NCBI GenBank assembly: GCA_021850365.1
Contig: JAJZMH010000033.1
Span: forward strand, 1-42,227
Length of the DNA: 42,227 nucleotides
Source of the DNA: a bacterium
Lineage (GTDB): Bacteria > Patescibacteriota > Saccharimonadia > Saccharimonadales > UBA4665
Reading direction: 5' to 3'
A program made the translations under genes and the position numbers. Positions 11,110 through 17,709 of the stretch are shown here, in pieces (the stretch's first letter is position 1; each line of letters opens with the position of its first letter). Under the pieces are notes generated by a model. The model made no database searches. It saw only the letters and a list, made by a program, of their open reading frames with translations, and had not been told where the DNA came from.

Positions 11110-11186
11110 TGGTGCGGGTGACGGGACTCTAACCCGTGGCCTCATCCTTGGCAAGGATGCGCTCTAAACAACTGAGCTACGCCCGC
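11110..11186 (-). tRNA. tRNA-Gly(GCC) with altered elbow
   Basis: Reverse complement folds as a cloverleaf with encoded CCA. The anticodon loop is TTGCCAA on a CATCC/GGATG stem, so GCC. Two features are odd. The D loop reads AGTTGTTTAGA, so position 19 is T instead of G, while the T loop is TTAGAGT, so position 56 is A instead of C. The universal G19-C56 tertiary pair would be U19-A56. The acceptor stem has a C6-A67 mismatch. Otherwise all stems pair, so it is likely functional. Confidence 0.9.
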
Positions 11187-13453: not shown

Positions 13454-14878
13454 ATGAATAAAGCTAATAATATTGATCGGTTAATGGGAAGTGAATCTGA
13501 ACTTGCAATTAATTTATTTGCTAATGATGAAGAACAAGGAGTGAAGACCATTGTTAATTTGGTCATAAATAATTTAGATCTTAGAATTACAGTTTTTGAA
13601 AATAACAATATTGATGCTGATTACTATTTATCTACTGGGGGAAGAATATATCCAGACAGTGAATTACTTGAAACTTGCTCTCCTGAATCTCTTGGTCCTG
13701 AGGAAGCAACATATACTGAAATGGTATCTAAAAGAATTGTCTTAGATGCATTATCTAGACTATGCCAAGATAAAAGTTATAAATTTGATTTATTCGACCG
13801 AGTAATTGATCAACAATCGAATACCTGGGGTTATCACAATAACTATTTAATAGAAAGAGAACACTACGATCCAGGAAATGAGTCAATCGAAAAAGATTTG
13901 TTCATTAATTTAATGTCAAGCCACTTTTTAAGTAGAGTGATCTTTAATGGTGGAGGACTTGTTAAAAAGAATTCTGGTTCCAAAAAGGATTATCATGTTT
14001 TGGCTGGCCAAAAACTTCAAACAGTCTCCACTTATTTTGAAAATGATACTGTTGTTGATAAACCATTATTTAATATTAGAGATAAATCATTGGCGAATTC
14101 TAATAATTGGGCTAGACTACATGACGTTTCTGGAGATTCAAATATCTCTCCATGGGCAACATGGTGGAATAAAGGCAGTACATCACTTCTTATACGACTT
14201 TATGAAAATCATAAAAATAAAGAATATAAAATTCCTTATATAGAGGATCCAGTTAAGGCTGCTCTTTCTTTTGCTAAGGACCCCAGTCTTCCCTTTTACG
14301 TAAACAAACAACAAAAATATAGCGCATTAGATATTCAAGAATGTCTTTATAATCAATGCGCTGCTTTAGCGGTTCAAACAGAACTACCACCTAGTGAACT
14401 TAAAGTTCTTGATGAATGGCAAAAAGCTATAACGGATTACAAAAAAAATCCTTATTTGTTAAGTAATCGTGTAGATTGGATTCTTAAAAAAGAACTTATT
14501 GAACGTAAAAATCTAAATTTCCGCAAAGCCCAAATCCTTGATCTAGAGTTTGGTAGATTGGGAAGTAAGCTAACGGAACTAATTCAAAAAAGAAATGTCT
14601 TTCCCGGATTTGATCCAAATAAATTAACTTCTTATTATTCTCCCCCTACTCAGACAAGAGCGTTTGAAAGAGTATGTCAATTGATAAATATAAGTTCAGA
14701 AGAAGAAAAGATCACAAGCATAAACTGGGATAAGATTAATATAGAAGTAAAAGATATAAATGGAGATGAAAGTTACTCTATCTCGATTTCAATGGATGAT
14801 CCAAATATTATAGACTCAGTTTTTTATGGAAATCATTCAGATGATTATGAATATTGGTCACAAAAAACGACAGTCTAA
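13454..14878 (+). CDS. PafA/Dop superfamily carboxylate-amine ligase or deamidase
   Basis: 474 residues, the length of Pup ligase PafA or depupylase Dop. Landmarks in family order: GSESE (12-16, where PafA has GIETE), GGRIYPDSELLETCSPE (62-78) aligning without gaps to the ARLYVDHAHPEYSSPE region, so Asp68 matches the catalytic Asp and Glu73 the metal-binding Glu. Then WGYHNNYLIER (GCHENYLV in PafA), RLHDVSGDSNIS (RLHVIVGDSNMS), SALDIQE, VDWILKKEL and PPTQTRA. The His and Tyr of HPEY are replaced (Leu71, Thr74). No pup, proteasome or Mpa gene is in the window. Whether it ligates or removes a modifier, and which one, is open. No Shine-Dalgarno sequence precedes the ATG. Confidence 0.85.
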   Translation: MNKANNIDRLMGSESELAINLFANDEEQGVKTIVNLVINNLDLRITVFENNNIDADYYLSTGGRIYPDSELLETCSPESLGPEEATYTEMVSKRIVLDALSRLCQDKSYKFDLFDRVIDQQSNTWGYHNNYLIEREHYDPGNESIEKDLFINLMSSHFLSRVIFNGGGLVKKNSGSKKDYHVLAGQKLQTVSTYFENDTVVDKPLFNIRDKSLANSNNWARLHDVSGDSNISPWATWWNKGSTSLLIRLYENHKNKEYKIPYIEDPVKAALSFAKDPSLPFYVNKQQKYSALDIQECLYNQCAALAVQTELPPSELKVLDEWQKAITDYKKNPYLLSNRVDWILKKELIERKNLNFRKAQILDLEFGRLGSKLTELIQKRNVFPGFDPNKLTSYYSPPTQTRAFERVCQLINISSEEEKITSINWDKINIEVKDINGDESYSISISMDDPNIIDSVFYGNHSDDYEYWSQKTTV

Positions 14879-16053: not shown

Positions 16054-16130
16054 TGGTGGGTGATGAGGGACTCGAACCCCCGACCCTCTCGGTGTAAACG
16101 AGATGCTCTAGCCAACTGAGCTAATCACCC
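16054..16130 (-). tRNA. tRNA-Val(UAC)
   Basis: Canonical cloverleaf with encoded CCA. Acceptor GGGTGAT/ATCACCC, anticodon loop TTTACAC giving TAC, T loop TTCGAGT. It is probably co-transcribed with the following tRNA-Phe from the promoter at 16155-16183. Its first 62 bases and 86 bases of upstream DNA are duplicated at 17562-17709. Confidence 0.96.
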
Positions 16131-17545: not shown

Positions 17546-17623
17546 TGGTCAAGTCAAGAGAGACTCGAACCCCCGACCCTCTCGGTGTAAACGAGATGCT
17601 CTAGCCAACTGAGCTAATCACCC
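17546..17623 (-). pseudogene. tRNA-Val(UAC) pseudogene
   Basis: The first 62 bases (5' acceptor strand through T loop) are identical to the real tRNA-Val, but the 3' acceptor strand is replaced by unrelated sequence that cannot pair with GGGTGAT, although a terminal ACCA-like end remains. The T stem keeps pairing through an extra G-T wobble. Its promoter -10 is TGTTAT instead of TATTAT. It should not give a working tRNA. Confidence 0.85.
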
Positions 17624-17709
17624 TTAAATTTTAAAAACGTCTCTAGAATAACAGCATATCTATTTTTAAAATGTAACAAAATTATTCGCTGAATTGAAGA
17701 AAACTAATA
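17562..17709. repeat. 148-bp direct repeat, right copy
   Basis: Second copy of 16069-16216. It runs directly into TATAAT of the tRNA-Leu promoter, so the ancestral arrangement was probably tRNA-Val and tRNA-Leu back to back with one shared spacer. The cassette now lies between the copies. Confidence 0.9.

Follow-up and report, generated by a model that had tools for sequence, protein, structure and literature searches.

Results

The window, by which is meant the whole 42,227-nucleotide stretch analysed here, is one contig (C8) of a genome of 653 kb in 35 contigs, estimated to be 91% complete. On its minus strand, at positions 11110 to 11186, lies a gene for tRNA-Gly(GCC) with an encoded CCA end, called by ARAGORN and matching Rfam RF00005 at 67.2 bits; the tRNA fold, the GCC anticodon, and the CCA end are all present. 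According to the sequence and its alignment to the Rfam model, the D loop carries G18 and U19 (position 11168) and the T loop carries U54 U55 A56 G57 A58, with A56 at position 11130, so the 19-56 pair is U-A rather than G-C. The initial annotation had described just such a gene with a U19-A56 elbow, and in this it was right. Elsewhere in the molecule, G18 is retained, the T-stem pair 51-63 is G-C, and 49-65 is A-U (G-U in the tRNA-Gly(GCC) of some relatives). The discriminator, position 73, is A (position 11113).

In nearly all tRNAs, position 19 is G and position 56 is C, and the G19-C56 pair is usually treated as invariant. It is a tertiary pair that lies exposed, and the L1 stalk, RNase P, and T-box RNAs stack against it. 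A review of the tRNA elbow (PMC4810234) describes residues 19 and 56 as forming a Watson-Crick pair with a flat outer face, through which the ribosome, RNase P, and T-box RNAs recognise the tRNA.

Close relatives (L040 to L042) have tRNAs that differ from the window copy by one base, with both elbow letters the same. Since these come from separate genomes, sequencing error at the elbow bases can be ruled out. The acceptor stem of the window copy contains a C6-A67 mismatch that is private to its genome, while all seven acceptor pairs are intact in the other 64 of the 65 distinct sequences compared. The mismatch could be a sequencing error, or perhaps the tRNA is weakening.

The genome that contains the window has 41 tRNA-like loci by RF00005. 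Among its 38 distinct tRNAs, as called by ARAGORN in retrieved stretches, only the window tRNA-Gly(GCC) lacks C56. Four genes encode tRNA-Gly: the GCC gene of the window, one each for UCC and CCC, and a second GCC gene (C23:33-108, also retrieved as L038:33-108). The initial annotation had asked whether another isoacceptor has a normal elbow, and this second GCC tRNA does: it carries G19-C56, along with U73. It is exceptional within the class (see below), and it stands on a contig of 4,186 bases that otherwise holds an Eco57I-like methylase/restriction gene and a piece of a tyrosine integrase running to the contig end. The G+C fraction of this contig is similar to that of the window (0.339 vs 0.333). 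No close source for it was found among phages and plasmids; the phage matches to its tRNA-Gly among the ten listed are 77-88% identical. The contig is possibly a mobile element or foreign, and given the copy it carries, GCC decoding in this genome may no longer depend on the swapped tRNA alone. GGU and GGC make up 322 of the 694 glycine codons in the 24 open reading frames of the window that are at least 200 amino acids long.

Some other features of the same genome may be mentioned. A tRNA-Val(UAC) gene is duplicated in the window together with its upstream flank (16054-16130 and 17550-17624); the copy at 17550 lacks the 3' part of the acceptor and looks like a pseudogene. Near a tRNA-Met gene on another contig (G000:C15:20012-20187) there are two weak tRNA-like matches (34 bits) that ARAGORN does not call and that are perhaps remnants of tRNAs. 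An open reading frame of this reduced genome, at 13454-14878 of the window, matches Pup_ligase (PF03136, E 3e-54), a pupylation-type enzyme.

The distribution of the swapped tRNA was assessed in a sample of 392 genomes of the class (probably Saccharimonadia) by means of a pattern that joins the anticodon loop of a GCC tRNA to a downstream T loop in which position 56 is A or U. The pattern was found in 358 of them, a few of which contain in addition a chance match or a 3' fragment (among the matches listed). The 34 genomes with no match, 22 of them among the 341 with a completeness of 90% or more, may have lost the decoder, may lack it owing to draft assembly, or may carry it in altered form. 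The same pattern with C56 matched in eight genomes, and of the eight matches ARAGORN recognises one as tRNA-Gly, the C23 copy of the window's own genome. After this check, then, a canonical GCC tRNA-Gly is present in 1 of 392 genomes. In the genomes of the class that have a GCC tRNA-Gly, the swapped form is therefore the rule, and it almost always stands alone. Three genomes of Candidatus Saccharibacteria (L188, L215, and L258, the last from HKST-UBA75) carry it as U19-A56, and from such members the class is taken to be Saccharimonadia.

A set of 59 near relatives, the window's genome included, was considered individually. All 59 match the 77 bases of the gene somewhere, many of them at other tRNAs, and true orthologues are present in 46. 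No GCC tRNA was found in the other 13, either by the strict pattern or by a looser one whose matches were judged by eye, nor did ARAGORN find an intron-split version in the stretches retrieved from them (allowing introns of up to 3000 bases); other tRNAs were present in those stretches, among them tRNAs for His, Trp, Met, Val, and Ala. One further C56 GCC tRNA-Gly turned up among near relatives, on contig C143 of genome G038 (L129), where there are two tRNA-Gly genes without encoded CCA. This assembly is 7% contaminated and lies outside the 392-genome sample, and it is excluded from the class counts and from the count of A73 given below.

Among 98 copies of the gene read within the class, taken from the near relatives and from others picked to cover its families, position 19 is always U or A, and it always pairs with position 56: 65 copies are U19-A56, 33 are A19-U56, and none is mispaired. 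(Left out as not fully readable were two loci with the 3' half only and one cut by a contig end; also left out were one locus outside the class without encoded CCA, one that is not tRNA-Gly, and three without a tRNA-Gly.) The suggestion that the double change preserves pairing is thus borne out, and the covariation sought in relatives is there. Because what replaces the canonical pair is always a matched pair, it is the pairing and not any particular letters that must be kept: the letters at 19 and 56 are free, but their pairing is not. Both U-A and A-U are found within each of four families (f8, f26, f28, and f31), and for this reason the double switch between the two states has very likely happened several times, judging from the sequences now present in those families.

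Outside the class the strict 30-base pattern performs poorly, matching only 34 of 116 genomes of the phylum even when any letter is allowed at position 56, and so the near-absence of A56 or U56 elsewhere in the phylum gives a lower bound rather than a frequency. In the phylum sample, the pattern with A or U at 56 occurred in 57 of 379 genomes, many of these being members of the class or chance matches. Four genomes outside the class (G487, G574, G645, and G727) do have, by ARAGORN, an A19-U56 tRNA-Gly, with U73. A fifth (G718) has U19-A56 together with A73, as in the class, perhaps on a contaminating contig. All five are excluded from the class counts.

Swapped elbows are not confined to glycine tRNAs. 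Genomes from about 85,000 species were scanned for tRNAs of any isotype, those with C35 excluded, that have A or U at each of positions 19 and 56, with A-A and U-U allowed. The cellular scan hit at least 113 stretches. The 117 matches listed, which include two tRNA-Gly seen alongside, comprise 113 A19-U56 and 4 U19-A56, with no A-A or U-U. The 115 listed that are not tRNA-Gly are for alanine (86), threonine (17), and valine (12), no other scanned isotype appearing among them. The same scan of viral contigs, together with one tRNA-Gly stretch, listed 124 matches, of which 115 are A-U, 9 are U-A, and none is mispaired; here the swapped tRNAs also include those for Ile, Met, Lys, Asn, and His.

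As a control, 14 cellular genomes chosen for having a swap were searched with the same arms and any letters at 19 and 56. This gave 78 tRNAs: 58 G-C, 18 A-U, 2 U-A, and none mispaired. All 20 of the swapped tRNAs are for Ala, Thr, Val, or Gly, whereas among the 58 with a canonical elbow 24 are (Fisher 9e-7), and restricting the comparison to the anticodons that were scanned leaves 18 of 18 vs 22 of 46 (Fisher 3.5e-5), both p values being overstated since the genomes are related and were selected for swaps. In viral contigs the corresponding proportions are 95 of 121 vs 67 of 127 (3e-5, among the matches listed).

Two cases in alanine tRNAs may be singled out. In one of the Saccharibacteria (G749, the genome of L188), A19-U56 is found in three tRNA-Ala isoacceptors. 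In addition, tRNA-Ala(GGC) has A19-U56 in three of the relatives that yielded no tRNA-Gly(GCC) (G031, G042, and G049).

The discriminator of the class is unusual as well. A73 is present in 66 of 67 distinct tRNA-Gly sequences of the class (61 GCC, 3 CCC, and 2 UCC), the sole U73 belonging to the copy on C23. A survey of tRNADB-CE, as tabulated in PMC6097841, records U73 in nearly all bacterial tRNA-Gly and A73 in 239 of 232,109. The same paper describes E. coli D-aminoacyl-tRNA deacylase (DTD) as deacylating Gly-tRNA-Gly nearly 100 times better when position 73 is a purine. Since the tRNA-Gly of the class carries such a purine, the class should prove to lack DTD or to have an altered form of it. 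A crude motif search found no DTD in about 262 kb of Saccharibacteria and 505 kb of other loci (overlapping), a result that means little.

The 3' half of tRNA-Gly(GCC) is repeated, with 47-48 identical bases, in two genomes (L167/L168 on contig C17 of G181, and L169/L170 in G359). In G181, the repeated half lies about 31 kb away, a duplication resembling those made by attachment sites, and because of this duplication tRNA-Gly(GCC) is probably an integration target. The viral contig IMGVR_UViG_3300037069_002169 (L300:10074-10150) encodes a tRNA-Gly(GCC) with U19-A56, A73, and an anticodon stem of its own. It also has an integrase-like open reading frame (named by eye), and its features suggest a phage of the class studied here.

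Discussion

The tRNA-Gly(GCC) of the window is very probably the ordinary GGU/GGC decoder of its class, with an elbow pair that an ancestor exchanged and that, with selection acting on pairing, has switched back and forth between U-A and A-U ever since. As an ordinary elongator it would read GGU and GGC, and we infer that it is charged and decoding from its standing as the sole GCC tRNA-Gly of the class and from the share of glycine codons it would serve, 322 of the 694 counted. That swapped-elbow tRNAs work in ordinary translation is very likely, since the same swap is found in three alanine isoacceptors of one genome as well. The ancestor of the class would have lost G19-C56 probably by way of A19-U56, a state that two transitions suffice to reach, with G-U or A-C in between. 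A19-U56 is a plausible intermediate in that it is carried by four of the genomes sampled from the rest of the phylum. Since then, selection would have kept only a Watson-Crick pair closing the elbow and presenting a stacking face to partners such as the L1 stalk and RNase P. Either U-A or A-U should preserve both the pair and its flat face, and selection on pairing alone would have let the letters flip repeatedly. The change would thus be nearly neutral and compensated, with no sign of a second job. Lineage-specific drift, which the initial annotation offered as one of two possibilities, describes this in part: the change is specific to the lineage (358 of 392 genomes of the class), but the drift has not been free, being compensated and constrained by pairing in all 98 copies.

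The other possibility raised was a specialised use, in which, as happens in staphylococci, a non-ribosomal tRNA-Gly supplies glycine for the cross-bridges of the cell wall. The attraction is that the non-proteinogenic tRNA-Gly of staphylococci does have an altered elbow, GG at 18-19 being changed to UU or CU, along with weak pairs for EF-Tu at A49-U65 and A51-U63 (as set out in a review, PMC4052509), and that the genome of the window has a second, canonical GCC tRNA. However, such a second copy is found in this genome alone of 392, and the swapped tRNA is otherwise the sole GCC decoder in the class (358 of 392 genomes, against 1 with a canonical form). The initial annotation had named a clade sharing the change in its only decoder as what would refute specialisation, and for GCC this is the situation found. 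Moreover, the swapped tRNA keeps G18, pairs 19 with 56, and has a strong G-C at 51-63. FemX-type ligases give no help either. FemAB-family genes (PF02388) are present in 13 of the 59 relatives but are not associated with the tRNA (found in 9 of 46 genomes that have the swapped tRNA and in 4 of 13 that lack it; Fisher p 0.45), and the window's own genome, 91% complete, has no match. The cell-wall role is accordingly rejected, as extremely improbable. Nor is there much to be said for an error at the elbow or for a decaying copy replaced by the canonical tRNA on C23. The private C6-A67 mismatch and the existence of that second tRNA might be so explained, but the elbow letters recur in relatives from separate genomes and the remainder of the tRNA is intact, as its 67.2 bits attest; this reading is very unlikely.

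A selected tuning of the elbow deserves more thought. By this account, the A-U or U-A pair softens or slows accommodation, translocation, or E-site release in tRNAs for Gly, Ala, Thr, and Val, which belong to four-codon boxes and pair strongly with their codons. The bias of swapped tRNAs towards these isotypes speaks for it, in the control genomes (20 of 20 vs 24 of 58), among the scanned anticodons, and in viral contigs. But the comparisons are not independent, the genomes being related; swapped viral tRNAs serve five other isotypes as well; those genomes also hold many tRNAs for Ala, Thr, Val, and Gly that fit the same arm pattern with a canonical elbow (24 of 58); and since isoacceptors of four-codon boxes are redundant, an equal bias would arise with no tuning at all. 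On balance, we consider tuning unlikely. A broader proposal, about which we are only a little less doubtful, is that 19-56 is an evolvable element dependent on isotype: tRNAs of four-codon boxes for small amino acids (Gly, Ala, Thr, and Val) would swap repeatedly, most other isotypes could not, and a softer pair would be tolerated or preferred by reason of decoding strength or elbow partners. If that were true, Saccharibacteria would have gone furthest, with a class-wide swap in tRNA-Gly(GCC) and three swapped alanine tRNAs in at least one genome.

With the elbow replacement understood as a compensated change in an ordinary decoder, the class offers a natural mutational scan of the 19-56 pair: an essential decoder that has dropped G-C in a whole class, with a pair that has flipped in at least four families and has never been seen broken. 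Such a scan tells apart two requirements, that the bases pair and that they be G and C, and it supplies natural tRNAs with which elbow function in RNase P processing and in translocation may be studied. With A73 as well, Saccharibacteria lend themselves to testing the idea that it is DTD that holds bacterial tRNA-Gly to U73. Among open-licence PMC papers, no report was found of A19-U56 or U19-A56 in bacterial tRNAs; earlier notice elsewhere is possible.

The tRNA may be compared with three known systems. With the elongator tRNA-Gly(GCC) of other bacteria it shares the cloverleaf, the GCC anticodon, and the encoded CCA, and its standing as sole GCC tRNA-Gly of the class would give it the decoding role too; it differs in having U-A or A-U in place of the typical G19-C56 and A73 in place of U73. 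With the cell-wall tRNA-Gly of staphylococci, the window copy has in common a changed position 19 and A49-U65, but unlike that tRNA, it keeps G18, compensates the change at 19 by one at 56, and has G-C rather than A-U at 51-63; its genome, moreover, lacks FemAB, and of the 392 genomes of the class this one alone has a canonical GCC tRNA beside the swapped one. The swapped tRNAs of other bacteria and of phages resemble it in the compensated replacement of the elbow pair. Those tRNAs, however, are nearly all A-U, with U-A rare (4 of 117 cellular and 9 of 124 viral matches listed), they belong to other isotypes, and in none of them is the swap shown here to extend across a class.
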